From the NCBI RefSeq assembly GCF_001652265.1, contig NZ_LWBS01000327.1, positions 186,001 to 250,000 on the forward strand: a DNA stretch of 64,000 nucleotides, given 5' to 3'. This stretch comes from Rhizobium leguminosarum. GTDB lineage: Bacteria; Pseudomonadota; Alphaproteobacteria; Rhizobiales; Rhizobiaceae. Positions within the stretch are counted from its first letter, which is position 1. Each line of letters opens with the position of its first letter. Positions 53,460 to 61,366 of this stretch are shown piece after piece. The notes under the pieces are model-generated. The model searched no databases. It worked only from the letters and a program-made list of their open reading frames with translations, and was not told where the DNA came from. A program made the translations under genes and the position numbers.

Positions 53460-55244
53460 ATGAACAAGGAGCACGATCCGTTTCGGATGTTCCTGCTCGG
53501 GCCTTTTGCCCTTGTGGACGCTGGGGGGCGGTCGGTTACTCCGAAATCCAAAAAGGCACAGGCTCTTCTGGCGATGCTTGCATTGTCCGCCCGGGGCTCG
53601 CGCTCGAGAATCTGGCTTAGAGACAAGCTGTGGAGCGATCGCTCCGACGATCAGGCGGCAGCCAGTCTACGCCAGGCGCTTTTGGACATTCATAAGAGTC
53701 TGGGGCCGGCACGAGATCTCCTGATTGCGGATAAGAATACCGTTTGGCTGGATACGGAACGACTCGTGCTCGATACCGACCTGGTGGCTCGGACGGAGCG
53801 GTCTCCGGATCAAGTCACCGACGAATTGCTCGAAGGTATCGACATCCGCGACCCCGAATTCGAGGACTGGTTGGCGCTGGAACGGCAAAACTGGTATCGC
53901 CGCCTCGATGAAGGACAAGTCCACGATGTCTTCGAGCCGCGACAGCAGCCGAGCCGCGATATCGCCAAACATTCCGCCCTGCTGCCTTTAACAGGCGCCC
54001 CGGATACGCCGAGAACAGGCAAACCCGTGGACATCGCCAGCAGCGACCCATATCGACAGCGGGTCGGCGGTGGCTGGCAATGGATGATGGCTCTTCTGTC
54101 CCCCATCGTGGTGGGTGCCGGCGAGGGCGGACAAATTGCTGCGACACGGTTCCAGAATCTCATTGCAAAAGCCATCATCGATGGGCTGGGCTTTGGCGTC
54201 ACCGACCTCTCCTTCACCTTGCCGAATATTGAGGAGAGCGAACAGCAGATCAGCCTTCCGCTATGCCTACAGCTTCGCCTGACGTTTGATGGTGACATGG
54301 TGCTGATCGAACTGGTGATGAAGCACCTGATCAACAACCGTATTCATTGGCTGGGCAGTCAGGCAATCAACCGCACGCAGTTCGAGAGGGGCGAGTTCGG
54401 CATCGCCGCTGCGCTGATCAGCCAGGCCGTCGATCAGCTGGCCTATTTCCAGGAGATCCAGGCAACCGACAGCCGATTGTCGCAGGACGGCCTCCTGATC
54501 GACGCCGTCAATGCGATTTTTCGGCTGTCGCGCGACGACCTCGATAACGCGGAGCGGCGCCTGGAAGAACAGATCCAGTATCAGCCGCGGTCATCGACTT
54601 TTGCCTGGCTGTCATTCATTCGGACTTTCCAGGTCGGCCAACGGTTCAACGCGCTGGACGCGCACCTGATCGAGGAAGCCCAGGCCTATGCACGCAAGGC
54701 GCTCGAACTCGATCCGCAGAATTCCGTGTCGCTCGCGCTCGTCGGCCACGTCCATTCGTTCCTGTTCGGCGAATACGACTATGCGGCCAACCTGTTCGAA
54801 AAATCGATCCGCCTGAATCCGGCCCTGCCGCTCAGTTGGGACCTCTACGCGATGCTGCACTGCTATGCAGGCCAGCCCGACAAGGCGGTGGCCATGGCGC
54901 GTTGGGTACAAGAGCTCGGCGTCTACAGCCCGCATAAATATTACTTCGATACGACCAAATGCATTGCGGCAGCGCTTGCGGGCGATCATGCCGCAGCCAT
55001 AGCTGCAGGCGAAGAAGCCCTGCGCGCCCGGCCGAACTTCAACAGTCTGCTGCGCTATCTTACCTCCAGTCACGCCCATTCCAACAATCTCGGCGGCGCG
55101 CGGCATTACCTGCAGCGTCTTGAGGCGGTCGAGGGCGGCTTCTCCATCAACGCCTTCCGCGGCAGCGGCTATCCGCTGCTCGACACAGGCGGCGGCCAGA
55201 TCTTGATCGACGGCCTGCTCAAGGCCGGCGCCAAGCTGCGCTGA
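53460..55244 (+). CDS. SARP-like winged-helix / TPR transcriptional regulator
   Basis: 594 aa from the ATG at MNKEHDPF (GTG three codons earlier is an alternative). Residues about 8-100 have the SARP/OmpR-type winged-helix pattern: FRMFLLGPFALVDAGGRSVTP, KKAQALLAMLALS and RIWLRDKLWSDRSDDQAAASLRQALLDIHKSLG. A middle region without assignment follows (about 190-340). The last 230 residues are TPR-like (AQAYARKALELDPQNSVSLALVGHVHSFLFGEYDYAANLFEKSIRLNPALPLSWDLYAMLHCYAGQPDKAVAMAR). No membrane segment, ATPase or cyclase domain is seen. Forty-one bases before the PAP2-fold gene, it is the obvious candidate activator of the locus. Confidence 0.82.
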   Translation: MNKEHDPFRMFLLGPFALVDAGGRSVTPKSKKAQALLAMLALSARGSRSRIWLRDKLWSDRSDDQAAASLRQALLDIHKSLGPARDLLIADKNTVWLDTERLVLDTDLVARTERSPDQVTDELLEGIDIRDPEFEDWLALERQNWYRRLDEGQVHDVFEPRQQPSRDIAKHSALLPLTGAPDTPRTGKPVDIASSDPYRQRVGGGWQWMMALLSPIVVGAGEGGQIAATRFQNLIAKAIIDGLGFGVTDLSFTLPNIEESEQQISLPLCLQLRLTFDGDMVLIELVMKHLINNRIHWLGSQAINRTQFERGEFGIAAALISQAVDQLAYFQEIQATDSRLSQDGLLIDAVNAIFRLSRDDLDNAERRLEEQIQYQPRSSTFAWLSFIRTFQVGQRFNALDAHLIEEAQAYARKALELDPQNSVSLALVGHVHSFLFGEYDYAANLFEKSIRLNPALPLSWDLYAMLHCYAGQPDKAVAMARWVQELGVYSPHKYYFDTTKCIAAALAGDHAAAIAAGEEALRARPNFNSLLRYLTSSHAHSNNLGGARHYLQRLEAVEGGFSINAFRGSGYPLLDTGGGQILIDGLLKAGAKLR

Positions 55245-55285
55245 ACTCCGGACAAATCTTCACATCATCGCGCAAGGAGGCTGCA

Positions 55286-56314
55286 ATGGAAGCGGACACT
55301 ACCGAGGAATCGCAATCGAAAATTGTTTTATTTCTAAACAGTTATAAATTCAGGATAGAGCCGGATTCGGTCCGTCCATGCGAACCCAGGGACGATGCCG
55401 GTGCTGATCCTCTCGCCGGTGCATCACCGGCTGCACCCGATGCGGCCTCCGAAGCTGTGCTTTTCTTCGGCACGGATGACGATGGATCGCCCCTGCCCGG
55501 GCCCATGATGGCGACGACGGCCGTAGCCTCGGTCCTCAACAAGAGCGTTGCAAACAAGTCGGTGCTCAACAAGGCGTCGCTGAACAAAAACAAGAACAAA
55601 AATAAGAATAAGAACAAGAACAAGTCGACGATGGACGGCGGCAGCCTCGGCGTGTCGCAGCTTATCCCCTCCTTCGAGCTGCGCAGGCTGCACCAGCAGC
55701 CGTCACGCAACGCATATACCGCGGCGCGGCGCTTCACCTGGGAAAAGCTGGATATACTTCCGCCCCCCGGCCCGGATTATACCCGCCTCGAAACGACGGT
55801 ACTGCTCTCCATGCAACGCCGCGACCGCGAACGTGTGCGCCGCCTGCCCGACATTCAAATCGAGTCGACGATCTCCGTGGGGGAATTCACCCGCGCATTG
55901 CATATCGAGGACCTCGGCGGTTTCGAGCAGACGGAAGGTCTTTTCCAGGCAATCCTGACGGCCTGCGAATATGTCGGGCTGATTTACAAAAGCCAGTTCA
56001 ACCGGCTGCGGCCAAATCAGTTCGAGCCCATGCTGCGGCCATTGCTGGCCGTGCCGGTCCACGAGTCCTATCCCAGCAACCACTCGTTCCAGTGCTTTTC
56101 GATCGCCTTCGCGTTCTCGACGATCCTGCCGGAACACCCGGCCACCGACGAGCTTGCCCGTATCGCCCAGAACGTCGCCGAAAACCGCGAATGGGCCGGC
56201 CTGCACTATCCGAGCGACACGCAGGCGGGGCGAGATCTCGCCCGACGCTTCGCTCCCTATCTCCACGACGCGTTCGGTCCTCTGTTCCAGGCCGTACACG
56301 ACGAATGGGTCTGA
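55286..56314 (+). CDS. PAP2/vanadium-haloperoxidase-fold protein with Asn-Lys repeat N-terminus
   Basis: 342 aa. The C-terminal two thirds carry the full PAP2 catalytic set: K235-x6-R242-P243 (KSQFNRLRP), P263-S264-N265-H266, and R301-x5-H307-x3-D311 (REWAGLHYPSD). This fold serves acid phosphatases and vanadium haloperoxidases; which activity applies is unknown. The first 115 residues are different: probably disordered, with four pentads (SVLNK, SVANK, SVLNK, ASLNK at 82-101) running into (Asn-Lys)7 at 100-113. No signal peptide or membrane helix, unlike most PAP2 enzymes. AAGGAGG precedes the ATG. Thirty-three bases before the subtilase gene. Confidence 0.85.
   Translation: MEADTTEESQSKIVLFLNSYKFRIEPDSVRPCEPRDDAGADPLAGASPAAPDAASEAVLFFGTDDDGSPLPGPMMATTAVASVLNKSVANKSVLNKASLNKNKNKNKNKNKNKSTMDGGSLGVSQLIPSFELRRLHQQPSRNAYTAARRFTWEKLDILPPPGPDYTRLETTVLLSMQRRDRERVRRLPDIQIESTISVGEFTRALHIEDLGGFEQTEGLFQAILTACEYVGLIYKSQFNRLRPNQFEPMLRPLLAVPVHESYPSNHSFQCFSIAFAFSTILPEHPATDELARIAQNVAENREWAGLHYPSDTQAGRDLARRFAPYLHDAFGPLFQAVHDEWV
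55583..55624 (+). repeat. Hexanucleotide repeat encoding (Asn-Lys)7
   Basis: Seven consecutive 6-base units of the form AAY-AAR (AACAAA, AACAAG, AATAAG variants). It is strikingly AT-rich inside a GC-rich gene. Because the unit is six bases, gain or loss of copies keeps the reading frame and would only change tract length. Confidence 0.9.
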
Positions 56315-56347
56315 ATTCGCCAGCTGCTGCTCAACAGGATCATAACC

Positions 56348-58042
56348 ATGACGGATCAAACACAAATGCCTGAGCCCGCACCGATCAACTACTATTATCT
56401 CTGGCACCTGACTGCCCTTGGCGTGGTCGACGCAGAATACGGAGCGGTTCCGCCGGCACCTCCAGCGCTCGATGTGAGCGCCGCACGCGCGCTCCCCGAT
56501 CCCCTCATCACCGGCACGGTCTGGGATGCTATCACTTCCGCCGGCCCGTTGCGACCCGCACGGGTCGCGTTGATCGATGTCGGCGTATCTCCGGATCATC
56601 CCAATCTGGCAACCCGGATTGACCGGGAGGCGTCAATCGATTTGACGACCCATCGTTACGGTGCGCGCGTGCTCGAAATTCTTGATACGACCACGTCCTT
56701 CGACCGCGAGGAAAGGCATGCCTTCTTTGCCGGGCTCGACATCGCTCCGCTCGGCAATATCGCCCTTTCGAATGACGACCGGGACTATCTCAGTGATCTG
56801 GTTGCCGACTACGCCGCGTCGGAAGGGGTACTCCGGCGGCTCTACAATCCGGAATCGCTTTTTGCATCGCATGGTACCTGCTGTGCAGGGCTGATCGTCG
56901 GCGAACCCGCCGTTGTTGCGGAAGAAGGCTCGCCAAGCCTTCCGCCGGAAGGAGCCTTCTATGGGAATGGCGACGAGCTGCGCACGAGCGGCAATCGCAA
57001 TGTCATCCCCTATTTCGGCGTTGATCCTTTCTCGAGGCTCATCTCGATCAGAACGTCCTTCGAAGACGATGTCAGGCAGTTCATTGCGGCCTTTCTTTAT
57101 GCCTATCATCAGAAAGCAGACGTGATCGTCTTGCCGCGCGGTCTGCCCGACCCGAAACGCAGCATCGTTGATCCGAAGAACGAGCTGAAGGCCGACCTGG
57201 AATTATGGAAAAACCAGGATGCCGCCAATCTGTTCACGCGCATTGCCGTTGCTGATCAGGGTGGGCCTGAACTGGAGCCGAAGGCTGCGCAGAAAGGTTC
57301 CAATCCGGATCGCCCGTGGCATGTCCTCAAACAACTCGTCCTCGCCATCAGCCGGCACATCCCGATCGTCTGCGCCGCAGGAAACAGTGGCGAGAGCCAG
57401 CTGATCTATCCGGCAAGCCTTGCCGCCGACGACAACGGCATCATTGCAGTTGGGGCCGTTACCGTCGAAGGTTTCCGTTCGGGCTACAGCAATTACGGCG
57501 AAGGATTGACGGTAGTCTCCCCCTCTGACGACGGGGAGGTCTTCAACAGGCATCAGTTGCGCCTCGACCGGCTTACTCCATTTGCCGCGCAGCATGACTA
57601 CAGCGCCTTTCGAACGCGGGAATACTACTATTCGCACTTCTCGCTGCTGACGACGGACCTCTCGGGGATTTTCGGCTATAATCAGGGCGCCGATCCGTGG
57701 TCGGCAATCGTGCCCTTCGGAACCAATCCGGGCATCGGGGGCGGATACTACACCGCCTTCGGGGGCACATCAGGCGCGTCGGCGCAGGTGGGCGGGCTAT
57801 GCGCCCTGATACAGCGGGCCTACAAAAGCCGCCACAATCCCGGTGACCGCCTCTCGGGGCCTCAAGTGAAATCAATTCTGAAGACCGCATCCCGCCTGGA
57901 CGCCATTGTCGCGCCCGGAACGAGGAAATTGACGGCGGATTGCATGAACGCCGAGAGCGAGGACGCCGTCGAGATGGCCTATTTCTTTGGAGCGGGCCTG
58001 CCAAATGCGCGTGCGGCGGTACAGGCAGCTCTGGCCATCTGA
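56348..58042 (+). CDS. Cytosolic subtilisin-like serine protease (peptidase S8)
   Basis: 564 aa with the complete subtilase site: Asp77 in VALIDVGVSPDHPNL, His175 in SHGTCCAGLI, oxyanion Asn346 in CAAGNSGES and nucleophile Ser475 in GGTSGASAQ. The residue after GTSxA is Ser-Ala-Gln rather than the common Ser-Met/Ala-Pro. There is no signal peptide and no evident pro-domain; the N-terminus (MTDQTQMPEPAPINYYYLWHLT) seems to be a short accessory stretch. Two insertions (about 100-170 and 185-290) enlarge the domain. Cytosolic subtilases of this kind act as maturation proteases in several peptide natural-product pathways. Followed by a terminator. Confidence 0.9.
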   Translation: MTDQTQMPEPAPINYYYLWHLTALGVVDAEYGAVPPAPPALDVSAARALPDPLITGTVWDAITSAGPLRPARVALIDVGVSPDHPNLATRIDREASIDLTTHRYGARVLEILDTTTSFDREERHAFFAGLDIAPLGNIALSNDDRDYLSDLVADYAASEGVLRRLYNPESLFASHGTCCAGLIVGEPAVVAEEGSPSLPPEGAFYGNGDELRTSGNRNVIPYFGVDPFSRLISIRTSFEDDVRQFIAAFLYAYHQKADVIVLPRGLPDPKRSIVDPKNELKADLELWKNQDAANLFTRIAVADQGGPELEPKAAQKGSNPDRPWHVLKQLVLAISRHIPIVCAAGNSGESQLIYPASLAADDNGIIAVGAVTVEGFRSGYSNYGEGLTVVSPSDDGEVFNRHQLRLDRLTPFAAQHDYSAFRTREYYYSHFSLLTTDLSGIFGYNQGADPWSAIVPFGTNPGIGGGYYTAFGGTSGASAQVGGLCALIQRAYKSRHNPGDRLSGPQVKSILKTASRLDAIVAPGTRKLTADCMNAESEDAVEMAYFFGAGLPNARAAVQAALAI

Positions 58043-58068
58043 GCCCCGGGGATGCTTTTCCCAGATTC

Positions 58069-58096
58069 CAAGCCTCCTCCATCGAGGGGGCTTTTT
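58069..58096 (+). terminator. Intrinsic terminator after the subtilase gene
   Basis: AGCCTCCTC pairs with GAGGGGGCT (one G-U pair) around a short CATC loop, followed by TTTTTCTTTG. It separates the first half of the locus (regulator, PAP2-fold, protease) from the second half (HQAGH protein, ThiF-like, small protein), which must have its own promoter or rely on read-through. Confidence 0.8.
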
Positions 58097-58283
58097 CTTT
58101 GTTTACGCCCTTTTTACGGATTTTTGACGCGGTACTGGCGGGCGAATGACGCCCTTGGGCAATAGTGCCTCTCAACGGACGGCACCTACCGTTCCGATGC
58201 CAGACGAAGCCGGCCCGAACCGGGGCATCTTCGCCCGACATGCAACCTTGTTTCACCAGAAGACAAACCCACGGAGGCTGTCG

Positions 58284-59729
58284 ATGTCCGCGTCTCGCAC
58301 TCAACAATTGGCAGATGAGGCACGCCACCTGCTCAGGGGCAATCCCCTGATGGCAAGCACCGTCTCCCTGCAGCGCGTCGCAACTCGCAACCTTTTAAAG
58401 CGACGCTTCCAATATGGGTGCACGCTCGCAGCGGGTTCGAAGCTTACCAATTGTTCGGCCGGGGTAGAGGCGCTGTCACGACATTTCCCCGGCCTTGCAG
58501 ATGGCGGATACACTCGCCTGCTGGAACTTCCCCCAGCGGCTGCCGAACCGGTCAGTGCCGACCCATATCGTTCGTCCGTGCTTGCAGCCTGGATGGGTGG
58601 GCTCGCGTGGAGCCTTGAATGGCAGGCGGGAGGCCCCGATGCGCAGATCGTCAGCGGCTATCTGCAGTCGGATCTGATCGCATCGGATCTTGAACTCGAA
58701 CGTCAACCGGCGCGCCGGCTCTCTTGCGGCATCGGCCTCGCCCTCATTGAAAGTCCGGCACGGAGCCGTGTCATGCAAGCCCTCCTCAGCCAATGCATGC
58801 CGAGCTATCGCGGTTCCGACTATCCCATCACTGACGGCGCGGAATTGGATCGCATCGCCGACCATCTGGAGAGCGCCTTCGCGCTAATCGCGAAATTGGA
58901 CGTGTACGGCTATCAGCGCCTGATCGCCGGCCTGCACACGCTTCACGTTGGCGTGCGGCGCGAACCGCCGTGTTCGTTATCGAGTTCGAACGAATTGCCG
59001 GGCAGCGCGATCATCGTCCTTTCCAGAGAAAGATTGCGCGACGGCGATCATGCCGCGACCGCGGCCCAACTGCTTCACCAAGCGGGGCATGTCCTGCTGG
59101 GGTTTTATACGACCTCGGCGGCGGCATCCCTGCCTGGCGAGTTCCAATATGTTTCCCCATACAAGGAGGATCTACAGACGCTCGAGAGCATCCTGCATGT
59201 GACGTACACCATTCCCTGGGAGTGCGCCTTCCGCATGGCATGCCTATCCACCGAGACGGATCCTGAGCGCCGCACCTGGAAGATGGCATTCATAATTGCC
59301 TATGCCGCGCGGCAAGTTCCGCTCATCGATATCGCCCGGAAAGGAATCGAACGTCTCGGCGGCGATGTTCTCCTCGATCTCCCAGACATCGCCGCCATTC
59401 CTTCCTGGAGTAGCCGGATTCTGTTCCTCGTGGGCCAGTTGCTTGCCGAAGAGCCTATTGCGCACCGCCAGGCCCACCTTGCCGAGCGCCAGCGAGTTCT
59501 CGATCGCCAAGCCTGGGATATTGGACAGATGCTGCTACGCGGCAAGGAGCCGATCGATCCTCGGATGGGCCGGCGAGAGATCGATGACACCGGCGACAAT
59601 GTCAGCCTCTGGTATGACGGCAAATTCCACGTGATCGCGAAGGCGGCCGACCATGCGATGGGCAAGGATTACGCTTGCTACGCCGAGACGATCTGCGGAA
59701 CTGCGCCCAGCGAGATGGAGGCGATGTGA
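58284..59729 (+). CDS. HExxH-type peptide-modification-like protein with HQAGH motif
   Basis: 481 aa. From residue 255 the pattern AATAAQLLHQAGHVLLGFYT, then FQYVSPYKEDLQTLESILHVTYTI, parallels the RiPP-associated HExxH family (now linked to 2-oxoglutarate-dependent peptide beta-hydroxylation): HExxH, a following LG, a Y-x-x-(P/S)-(W/Y)-x-x-D-x-R/Q-x-L segment and a downstream LxHxxY. Here the motif reads His265-Gln-Ala-Gly-His269, so the Glu is Gln, while the later His305 is kept. The N-terminal 250 residues are not recognised. GGAGG lies six bases before the ATG. The stop overlaps the ThiF-like start by one base. Family assignment is from motif memory. Confidence 0.65.
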   Translation: MSASRTQQLADEARHLLRGNPLMASTVSLQRVATRNLLKRRFQYGCTLAAGSKLTNCSAGVEALSRHFPGLADGGYTRLLELPPAAAEPVSADPYRSSVLAAWMGGLAWSLEWQAGGPDAQIVSGYLQSDLIASDLELERQPARRLSCGIGLALIESPARSRVMQALLSQCMPSYRGSDYPITDGAELDRIADHLESAFALIAKLDVYGYQRLIAGLHTLHVGVRREPPCSLSSSNELPGSAIIVLSRERLRDGDHAATAAQLLHQAGHVLLGFYTTSAAASLPGEFQYVSPYKEDLQTLESILHVTYTIPWECAFRMACLSTETDPERRTWKMAFIIAYAARQVPLIDIARKGIERLGGDVLLDLPDIAAIPSWSSRILFLVGQLLAEEPIAHRQAHLAERQRVLDRQAWDIGQMLLRGKEPIDPRMGRREIDDTGDNVSLWYDGKFHVIAKAADHAMGKDYACYAETICGTAPSEMEAM

Positions 59730-60685
59730 TGGTCAATGATCGGTCCAAACGATTGTCAGCGACCGCCACCGCGTCCGTCGACTTCCCGAACCTCGTCACC
59801 CACAGCCTCGGGCGGGGCGGCCGGGGGGCTCTGTTCACCGGCAATAGTGCCGATTCTGTCGAGGAACAGAGCCCTCATGTTACCAGGTCTGCATTCGTCG
59901 TCTCGTTGAAGGCTTCCGATATGCCGGCGGAGGACGAATATGACTCCGCCGCAATCGATCACCACGACGCCATCCTGGCGCCTCTTTGCCATCGGCAACG
60001 CGACATCGAACGGTTTGGCGACATCGACTTCGTCATCATCGGATGCGGCTGCTTGGGCTCACAGATCGCCATCCAGCTCGCGGCCCTCGGCGCGCGCCAT
60101 TTTCTTCTCGTGGATGCGGATCGTATCGATGAGAACGACTTGAACCATCTCCCATGGGCAAACGAGGCTGATCTCGGCTGGCTGAAGACGGACAGGCTGG
60201 CGACCCATCTGGCCGCGGGTTTCTCGGCCACTGTCTTCGCGCTGCCGGAATTTGCGGAAGGCGCCTCGGCGCTACGGTTAATCGCAAACTACGCCAATAA
60301 CCCGTTCTTCATCCTCGCCGGCGGCGATTCTCGTCCAGCCCAAGATCTCCTGTCGGCCTGCCGAGCCTTGGAAGCCGGCCTGCCGCCTCATCTGCATGTG
60401 GGCCGCTCTGCAAACTATTGCATGGCAGGTCCTTTGGCCTTGCTGCATGAGGACGCATGTTCCGTCTGCCATTGCGCCATCCAAGTCGCAACCGACGACG
60501 GCTTACGCGCGCCGCCGGCCACCGTCGACAGCCAATTGGTAGCCAGCCTTGCCGTGTCGCAGATCGCCCAAAAATGCCTTTCGAGGCACTCGGTCGCCCG
60601 GGGACGCCAATGGACATTGGACCTCAAGGCGATCAGCCCGAGCTGCGCTCTCTCCAAACACCCCGAATGTAAGGTATGCCCATGA
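59729..60685 (+). CDS. ThiF/E1-like adenylyltransferase
   Basis: 318 aa. Residues about 75-318 are an E1-like domain: dinucleotide motif GCGCLGS (105-111), LLVDADRIDENDLNHLPW with Asp129/Asp131, Lys153 (LKTDRLA), and a zinc-type Cys set C244-x2-C247 and C314-x2-C317. The usual Arg after the DxDxxxxxNL region is His140. The N-terminal 75 residues are unassigned. Such enzymes adenylate a C-terminal carboxylate of a small protein or peptide (ThiS, MoaD, microcin C precursor). No ThiS/MoaD-like protein, E2 or JAB protease is nearby, so a dedicated peptide substrate is inferred. Coupled to genes on both sides by start-stop overlap. Confidence 0.85.
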   Translation: MVNDRSKRLSATATASVDFPNLVTHSLGRGGRGALFTGNSADSVEEQSPHVTRSAFVVSLKASDMPAEDEYDSAAIDHHDAILAPLCHRQRDIERFGDIDFVIIGCGCLGSQIAIQLAALGARHFLLVDADRIDENDLNHLPWANEADLGWLKTDRLATHLAAGFSATVFALPEFAEGASALRLIANYANNPFFILAGGDSRPAQDLLSACRALEAGLPPHLHVGRSANYCMAGPLALLHEDACSVCHCAIQVATDDGLRAPPATVDSQLVASLAVSQIAQKCLSRHSVARGRQWTLDLKAISPSCALSKHPECKVCP

Positions 60686-60936
60686 TCGCGCTATTTTCCT
60701 CGGGATATTGTTGCTCCGTTGGCGCAACTGCCGGAACGAACGATGAGCTGACAATAACCGAAGCTCTTTGTGATCCACTGATCGCCATGGTGATGCGCGC
60801 GGATGGCGTGACTTCCGAAGAGTTCAAGCGACTCCTTGAGGCGGCAGCCCATGAGCTAAAAACCAAATTGGCTAACTCCATCAACGGAGGATCGAAGGAG
60901 CAGGCAACGAGGACGCCCGCTTCTTCCCACCGATAG
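60682..60936 (+). CDS. 84-aa small protein overlapping the ThiF-like gene; candidate substrate peptide
   Basis: 84 aa from the ATG at 60682 that overlaps the ThiF-like stop (ATGA); AAGG lies seven bases upstream. An ATG two codons earlier is possible. Sequence order: a short N-terminal part with adjacent Cys (SGYCCSVGATAGTNDEL), a helix-forming segment (DPLIAMVMRADGVTSEEFKRLLEAAAHELKTKL), and a polar, Ser/Thr-rich tail ending TPASSHR. Small proteins with a DPLIxxVMxADxV helix are, from memory, scattered in proteobacteria without known function. Position and coupling make it the best candidate for the peptide that the locus modifies or cuts; this is inference. Confidence 0.7.
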   Translation: MIALFSSGYCCSVGATAGTNDELTITEALCDPLIAMVMRADGVTSEEFKRLLEAAAHELKTKLANSINGGSKEQATRTPASSHR

Positions 60937-61060
60937 GAGGATACGCGACATCTTTGTCGAGATGACGCGGAAGATGGTTGACGAGTATGTGTGGCCAATC
61001 CCGGTCCGAAACCATGGCCCGGCATTGGCAGCACTGGCCGTCCCGCGGAATTCAGGCGCA

Positions 61061-61366
61061 ATGAGATTCGATATGTTGAGAAAGTTCCCAACGATAATTC
61101 TGGTTTTTGCGGACGGGAAAGATCGCAAGGTGATCCGTACCGCTCACGAGGCTGCCCAACTGTTGCTGAAGGAGTGGCCCACCGACGATGGTGAGGAATT
61201 CCTCACGGCGGTGAGAATCTGTCTGGAGGTCCTTACCGGAGAGAGCGAGCCCGAGAAATTGCATGAGGCAATCGTCCGCGCCGCATATGAGGCGGGTATT
61301 GCAGCGATCACGACTGATAACCGCCTTGGGATTCTCAGGATCTATCCGGTCAGCGAGGCCAGATAG
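61061..61366 (+). CDS. DUF982 family small protein
   Basis: 101 aa. Matches the rhizobial DUF982 pattern: FADGKDRKVIRTAHEAAQLLLKEWPTDDGEEFLTAVRICLEVLTGESEPEKLHEAIVRAAYEAGI. The frame stays open back to 60962 with a GTG/ATG choice; MRFDMLRKF was taken as start because the conserved domain begins there. DUF982 genes occur in many copies in Rhizobium, with no known function. It may be unrelated to the preceding modification-like locus. Confidence 0.75.
   Translation: MRFDMLRKFPTIILVFADGKDRKVIRTAHEAAQLLLKEWPTDDGEEFLTAVRICLEVLTGESEPEKLHEAIVRAAYEAGIAAITTDNRLGILRIYPVSEAR

Follow-up and report, generated by a model that had tools for sequence, protein, structure and literature searches.

An exact peptide repeat in a PAP2-fold enzyme linked to a TPR regulator, next to a probable peptide-modification remnant in Rhizobium leguminosarum

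Do six consecutive genes of Rhizobium leguminosarum encode a single peptide-modification pathway? The question arises from a 64,000-nucleotide stretch of contig NZ_LWBS01000327.1 (assembly GCF_001652265.1, positions 186,001 to 250,000 of the forward strand), hereafter the window, in which six genes, called A to F here, follow one another on the plus strand (Table 1). A first-pass annotation made from the sequence had read them as one locus for the modification and maturation of a ribosomally synthesized and post-translationally modified peptide (RiPP). Its gene calls are confirmed. The six open reading frames (ORFs) are where it placed them, with overlaps of 1 base between D and E and of 10 bases between E and F. 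Pfam recovers tetratricopeptide repeats (TPR) in A, PAP2 in B, Peptidase_S8 in C and ThiF in E. D was rightly seen as a relative of RiPP-type modifiers, since it matches TIGR04267, a family of RiPP peptide hydroxylases. The grouping itself did not hold: the six genes are two units, A-B-C and D-E-F, and not one pathway. Taken together, we tentatively favor a reading in which A-B-C is a module built on a phosphatase with a repeat tail and D-E-F is what deletions have left of a RiPP cluster.

The division into two units is drawn from a terminator-like stem in the C-D spacer. Aligned relatives show, by eye, the same stem and T-run. Terminator-like sites in the region as a whole are not above the level of shuffled sequence (9 vs 6.7 ± 2.8). 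The gene order A-B-C-D-E is kept in 20 Rhizobium and Neorhizobium loci, 19 of them distinct (L035 is a record of L021); all were found via D, so D is present in them by selection. In 16 leguminosarum-type loci, median omega is 0.147 for A, 0.121 for B and 0.090 for C, compared with 0.282 for D and 0.504 for E, which indicates weaker constraint on the last two genes. These medians leave out the duplicate L035, L037 and L038, where D/E is broken, as well as L033 and L036. The first-pass annotation had proposed a neighborhood comparison across genomes, and this comparison separates the two halves. A-B-C occurs without D-E in Phyllobacterium zundukense, in Palleronia and in L095 and L097, both from the window's order. 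By annotation, the same layout without D-E is found in Phaeobacter, in Paracoccus sp. AK26 and on Pontibrevibacter plasmids, with the regulator on the opposite strand in the Paracoccus sp. AK26 and Pontibrevibacter modules. A single RiPP locus would agree with the order shared by the 20 loci, with the reservation just given about D, and with the RiPP enzyme family of D. We nevertheless judge it very improbable: A-B-C stands alone elsewhere, D-E-F has neither precursor nor leader-binding parts, D and E are less constrained, and the stem lies between C and D. One six-gene RiPP system is thus rejected on distribution, constraint and the deletion scars described below.

What characterizes A-B-C is an exact tract of seven Asn-Lys (NK) units in B, which the first-pass annotation had missed. 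The repeat region around it is conserved in Rhizobium and Neorhizobium, the spacer on its 5' side varies, and the number of NK units ranges from 5 to 8 across the 20 loci. A search of the window's own genome with a pattern of four NK codon pairs gave 4 overlapping matches, all inside the tract of B; the backwards control pattern also gave 4 matches, probably in the same tract. By a simple rule, an exact tandem peptide repeat is present in 50 of 70 protein homologues of B. Most of these repeats are NK or NR, others are GR, AK or TK, and one of the 50 is merely an Ala run.

The repeat is tied to a neighboring regulator gene. PAP2 genes were sampled order-wide (8 of 397 genomes, E 1e-15), class-wide (26 of 385) and phylum-wide (54 of 349), covering 8 of 8, 30 of 30 and 30 of 59 places, respectively. 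Ten plasmid regions from 105 records, outside the leguminosarum type, were included (L083, L084, L158-L165). Regulator and PAP2 neighbors were called with profiles of each. Every genome place was counted once, and the window alone represents the leguminosarum type. Beside a TPR-regulator gene, 40 of 41 PAP2 genes carry an exact repeat of at least three units. Where no regulator was detected, the figure is 1 of 26, the exception being L186 (QTQ x7), for which only 1.5 kb of flank was seen. A Fisher test of the two groups yields 4e-16, to be taken as a guide value as the rows are phylogenetically related. In 35 of the 41 linked loci, regulator and PAP2 gene share a strand, and all 35 have the repeat. 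The other six have the regulator on the opposite strand, five with the repeat (L140, L159, L160, L165, L184) and one without (L148).

The 40 linked tracts are made of 26 different units: NK, NR, MT, SL, AGN, TGN, TSN, DAR, DGM, EGGG, SGV, NSF, NAE, GGA, GGF, GSF, TAQ, SGH, GGH, GNGQ, SGGA, SGA, TGV, TAM, AGV and AGR. Their residues are rich in G, N, A, S and T. The weakest tracts are EGGG x3 of L136, SL x4, which is C-terminal, TAQ x4 and SGH x4. If the tag is ancestral, 26 units mean at least 25 unit changes. Such changes can be seen between relatives: TGV faces AGV while the rest of PAP2 is 69% identical, and NSF faces GGF at 65% identity. As judged from these comparisons, units change but the repeats stay exact. 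It is rare for a protein feature to be conserved in kind and not in sequence, and here this holds for 26 units in 40 regulator-linked enzymes. In L140, an (NAE)x7 tract lies between 7701 and 8046, 5' of the earliest ATG or GTG codon in the PAP2 ORF; this gene likely uses a TTG start, and ORF callers would miss its repeat.

Slipped-strand expansion of DNA could also produce such tracts, without any protein function. The variable unit number in the Rhizobium and Neorhizobium loci would fit, as would L136, where the DNA units are identical. However, codons within the tracts are mixed as in a random deal. Adjacent DNA units are identical in 24 of 285 pairs, and 20.7 ± 3.8 are expected when codons are dealt randomly among equal residues (40 tracts, including L033, L036 and L186 and leaving out L093, L094 and the window). 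Moreover, a tract of at least nine residues occurs in 0 of 554 other ORFs (at least 200 aa) in neighboring stretches, by a rule that caught 17 of 32 PAP2 frames, not all of them of the linked type. The tie to the regulator also speaks against an artefact, which we find hardly credible. DNA slippage is rejected as the cause of the present tracts on codon mixing. Since synonymous codons are mixed within them, the tracts as a set are maintained at the protein level, and recent slippage of DNA does not account for them. The same test gives no support for active avoidance of DNA repeats.

B has the active-site motifs KX6RP, PSNH and RX5HX3D. Its linked PAP2 relatives have KX6RP in 39 of 39 cases, PSxH in 36 of 39 and RX5HX3D/N in 39 of 39. 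Both sequence and structure comparisons place B closest to acid phosphatases, namely 7f17 from P. aeruginosa, PhoN and PhoC. The vanadium haloperoxidase 4usz is a weaker structural match (TM by target 0.35). Vanadium haloperoxidases have their superfamily in common with B, but their chains are much longer (410-640 residues). A haloperoxidase assignment was set aside because class A acid phosphatases match better, with vanadium peroxidases second. B is acid-phosphatase-like, and phosphatase activity is predicted from its motifs and model. Class A acid phosphatases are exported enzymes. B has their PAP2 fold and active-site motifs, but inspection by eye shows no hydrophobic N-terminal start in it, and such a start is likewise missing from 38 of 39 linked relatives. 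By a crude hydropathy rule, applied to a list outside which the window's own B falls, a hydrophobic N-terminal stretch is present in 1 of 39 regulator-linked PAP2 proteins vs 16 of 23 unlinked ones. B further differs from the class A enzymes in its repeat tail and in its regulator and protease partners.

The model of B shows low-confidence, probably disordered residues 37-124, followed by the PAP2 domain (predicted local distance difference test, pLDDT, mostly >90). Ahead of the low-confidence tail, residues 7-31 (55304-55378) are modeled as a helix and a hairpin with moderate confidence. A similar motif was seen by eye in NK and NR relatives, and it could be a docking element. In R. johnstonii 3841 (L035:6218-7030), the annotation begins PAP2 73 codons into the conserved frame, which leaves out the N-terminal helix-hairpin part.

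The partners of the enzyme vary in family. C has the motifs LIDVG, SHGT, AAGNSG and GTSGAS and no evident signal peptide. Among 35 downstream ORFs scanned in linked loci, 21 match Peptidase_S8 and 5 match Peptidase_A4, that is 26 proteases of two unrelated kinds; several of the remaining ORFs are cut by the locus end. In L136, the place of those proteases is taken by a nearby ORF whose papain-like match (C70/C39) is weak and below cut-off. Orthologues of A are 69-98% identical across the 20 Rhizobium and Neorhizobium loci. In 22 regulators scanned, TPR_2 was found in 18, and the N-terminal part matched Guanylate_cyc in 6, Trans_reg_C in 4 and BTAD in 3.

Our best guess for A-B-C is regulated proteolysis of a repeat-tagged phosphatase. 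The repeat tail would serve as a handle for holding, positioning or turning over the phosphatase. Cleavage of the tail or of the enzyme by the co-encoded protease would release or destroy its activity. The TPR part of the regulator would monitor the state of the phosphatase; regulators of the SARP or winged-helix type would relay this state to transcription, those of the cyclase type to a cyclic nucleotide. In its wider form, as a possibility that we put forward with caution, this would be a control system widespread in proteobacteria: a cytosolic phosphatase would bear an exact tandem tag with units of 2-4 residues, which need only match one another whatever their sequence, and a co-encoded TPR regulator and proteases of unrelated families would read and cut the tag.

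Several points weigh against this proposal. That the protease cuts the tail and that the regulator binds it is what we infer. With a regulator profile derived from repeat-linked loci, divergent regulators could escape detection; in 9 of the 26 unlinked places, the view covered no more than about 1.5 kb of flank, the unlinked L153 and L157 are near contig ends and L161 is a broken frame. A protease is not seen beside every linked locus: the next ORF of L134 matched no family, and the scan left out L096, L135 and L184. Repeats of the enzyme's own unit were found in 0 of 36 regulators and 0 of 36 proteases. Finally, 12 pairs compared for co-evolution of the TPR part with the unit gave no consistent drop in TPR identity where the unit changes. 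The TPR parts are 82% identical in the TGV/AGV pair and 57% identical in the NSF/GGF pair (PAP2 69% and 65%). In same-unit pairs, TPR and PAP2 identities are 81% vs 64% (GGA/GGA) and 32% vs 55% (NR/NR).

The absence of a consistent TPR trend speaks against a strict code and makes assembly or positioning by any exact repeat a strong rival. Exact repeats would then self-assemble as an ordered scaffold or condensate and cluster the phosphatase, while protease and regulator serve turnover. Examples of such assembly are poly-glycine-II or beta-type packing for GGX units and FG-like cohesion for GGF, GSF and NSF. Exact periodicity kept through unit change suggests that units must match one another, and the richness in G, N, A, S and T as well as a tail modeled without order in the B monomer are in line with a scaffold. 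On the other hand, NK, NR, DAR, MT and AGR have no obvious common assembly chemistry, and many tracts are 8-18 aa long, which is short for assembly. On balance we hold a scaffold to be unlikely, though to be kept in view.

Alternatively, the protease could free short identical peptides from the tail that bind the TPR part of the regulator inside the cell. According to the excerpts consulted of PMC4873490 and PMC7430634, RRNPP regulators bind processed signaling peptides, and the module resembles these systems in co-encoding a TPR regulator, a peptide repeat and a protease. Here, however, the peptide is part of an enzyme with retained catalytic motifs, none of A, B and C is a transporter, and the 12 pairs show no consistent co-divergence of TPR part and unit. 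An internal signal peptide is improbable in our view. A role in cellular conflict, with B as an effector phosphatase held in check, C as activator or antidote and A as sensor, we also regard as quite improbable. It would account for the patchy distribution noted above (8 of 397 order genomes) and for proteases of unrelated families beside one enzyme fold. Paracoccus sp. AK26 even has a SIR2-family gene two genes downstream of the protease. Besides that gene, no defense gene was recognized by eye in the annotated neighborhoods of linked loci. PADLOC models gave no match for A, B, C, D or F, and E matches only E1-E2 models of the common ThiF fold.

Regulated proteolysis of the tagged phosphatase thus stays our preferred reading of A-B-C. 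No description of the module was found in open-licence papers, as judged by titles and abstract starts; it is apparently both widespread and undescribed. The module would allow direct study of what repetition itself gives a cell, and R. johnstonii 3841 and Phaeobacter inhibens are tractable hosts that carry it. In R. johnstonii 3841, the module genes are RL_RS36050, RL_RS36045 and RL_RS36040. In Palleronia sp. THAF1 (L084:14503-18260), an animal-type haem peroxidase (PF03098, 65 bits) and a gene annotated as a C1 peptidase, for which Pfam gave no match, lie 3' of the module.

Table 1 Features of the six-gene region, in window coordinates.
Feature	Position	Strand	Description
Gene A	53460-55244	+	TPR regulator; SARP-like N-terminus, TPR repeats C-terminal
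Gene B	55286-56314	+	predicted cytosolic PAP2 / class A acid-phosphatase-fold enzyme; PF01569 32 bits
Conserved repeat region of B	55532-55630	+	VLNKSVANKSVLNKASLNKNKNKNKNKNKNKST
Exact (Asn-Lys)x7 tract in B	55583-55624	+	read from sequence
Gene C	56348-58042	+	S8 subtilase; PF00082 (Peptidase_S8) 65 bits
Terminator-like stem-loop after C	58070-58093	+	10 pairs, tail TTTCTTTGTT
Scar, left half	58087-58179	+	matches L033 7616-7709 (74%), just 5' of radical SAM gene
Scar, right half	58265-58297	+	matches L033 9983-10014 (88%), just 5' of D
Gene D	58284-59729 (alternative start 58146)	+	aKG-HExxH peptide-hydroxylase relative; TIGR04267
HQAGH motif of D	59076-59090	+	read from sequence
Gene E	59729-60685	+	ThiF-like (MccB/PaaA-related), probable remnant; PF00899 58 bits
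Probable AdoMet decarboxylase start remnant, fused to ThiF	59729-59808	+	nucleotide continuity with L033
Gene F	60676-60936	+	86 aa, probable chimera
DUF982 gene	60962-61366	+	3' of F; profile match

What, then, is D-E-F? D matches TIGR04267 (aKG-HExxH) with 62.4 bits, above the curated cut-off of 40. According to the excerpts consulted of PMC12636437, this family of peptide hydroxylases is well known from RiPP work and includes ChlH, BpmH and PflC/PosC. D differs in that its motif is HQAGH instead of HExxH, so that both His are kept and Glu is not, and in that no precursor is left in the window. Among 20 relatives of D fetched, 8 have HxxxH, 8 have HEAGN or HEAAN and 4 match neither pattern. 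D is found in 68 plasmid records, where it is often annotated as peptide modification protein. The start of D at 58284 is more likely than that at 58146, as this is also where the gene starts in the L033 relative and in the annotation of R. johnstonii 3841.

The locus L033, from Rhizobium sp. BK602, holds an intact-looking RiPP cluster (L033:7764-15624). Between C and D it has a radical SAM/SPASM gene and two paralogous precursor-like peptides of 107 aa, p1 and p2, with tails FDGNCGCAL[YF]GPGGVLTR. An S-adenosylmethionine (AdoMet) decarboxylase (PF02675, 62 bits), a methyltransferase and two peptides of 59-61 aa, both ending in DLVAN, lie between D and E, and a second methyltransferase ("double methyltransferase") follows E. 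The best NCBIfam match of the first methyltransferase is of the daptide type; its 104 bits fall short of the cut-off of 175. Among PDB sequences, the L033 ThiF matches MccB entries best (50 bits). According to the excerpts consulted of PMC12250964, the substrate residue of MccB is a C-terminal Asn, and SAM is the source of the aminopropyl group that MccD and MccE attach. As Asn-ended peptides stand here beside an MccB-like ThiF and an AdoMet decarboxylase, a microcin C-like branch is an attractive idea by analogy. The radical SAM gene of the L033 type was found in 1 of 148 genus genomes (E 1e-60). A plasmid search for an L033-like cluster gave no close match, with 5 records, all below 60% identity.

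Comparison of the window with L033 reveals what appear to be deletion scars. Between the two scar halves, 2.27 kb of L033 holding the radical SAM gene and the two precursor-like genes are absent, and p1 and p2 have no counterpart in the window's spacer between C and D. In the D-E region, the nucleotide match to L033 runs from D into the decarboxylase start, resumes inside ThiF and continues from E into the start of the second methyltransferase. The claim of a decarboxylase remnant rests on this nucleotide continuity, since protein similarity between the start of E and AdoMet decarboxylase is weak (score 35, shuffle maximum 40). The match of E to the L033 ThiF begins near codon 60; the N-terminal part is replaced and is probably of other origin. 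E reads DLNH (at 60137) where the L033 ThiF reads NLNR, so that the Arg is lost; we take this Arg to have a role in ATP binding. MccB and PaaA have an N-terminal peptide-recognition domain before the adenylation domain, according to the excerpts consulted of PMC12250964. E differs from both in lacking the N-terminal part that holds this domain and in reading DLNH for NLNR.

D-E-F is thus probably an eroded deletion remnant of a RiPP cluster, with a pathway that is probably not functional: radical SAM gene and precursors are gone, the leader-binding region is gone, and constraint is weaker. Against this view, D and E are mostly open frames with omega below 1, which leaves room for some residual function. 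That a RiPP pathway formerly lay here is probable from the place of D in a RiPP hydroxylase family and from the L033 relative of E being closest to MccB. In the Neorhizobium locus L036, the fusion is a different one, with the start of the first methyltransferase joined to ThiF (by eye vs L033), so deletions happened more than once. From the gene fragments that persist in the window and L036, we infer that L033, a single genome, is nearer the ancestral state. In those leguminosarum-type loci that were examined, the tempting RiPP locus is therefore worn down to a remnant; the fuller cluster is that of Rhizobium sp. BK602. In the Neorhizobium loci L037 (9001-11230) and L038 (8877-9918), D/E is matched only in pieces or in part, as further signs of decay.

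The first-pass annotation gave F as 84 aa; it has two more residues. Pfam and NCBIfam gave nothing convincing for it. At its start, F can be aligned with the beginning of the second L033 methyltransferase (score 41, maximum of 500 shuffles 38), and the rest belongs to a small-protein family (DPLIAMVMRADGV), so by its sequence F is a probable chimera of the two. The family part of F lies at 60739-60861, and the family motif is DPLIAMVMRADGVxxxxFKRLL; a second copy is in the window's own genome at G000:C109:66608-66817. The family is present in 70 of 346 Rhizobiaceae genomes, and CSYC or CSFC is the usual ending of its free-standing members of 69 aa. These ends looked core-like. A role of F as RiPP precursor was rejected, as the family sits in unrelated places: of 14 contexts fetched, the 6 listed gene by gene are unrelated (L072, L074, L076-L080 and L082 are outside this listing). 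In these 6, no RiPP enzyme was recognized by eye near the family member; a QueE-like radical SAM gene is near in L081. Of the 20 Rhizobium and Neorhizobium loci, 16 have the DUF982 gene that follows F; L033 and L036-L038 lack it. In 4 of the 6 listed loci of the small-protein family, a TetR-like gene (by eye) adjoins the family member.

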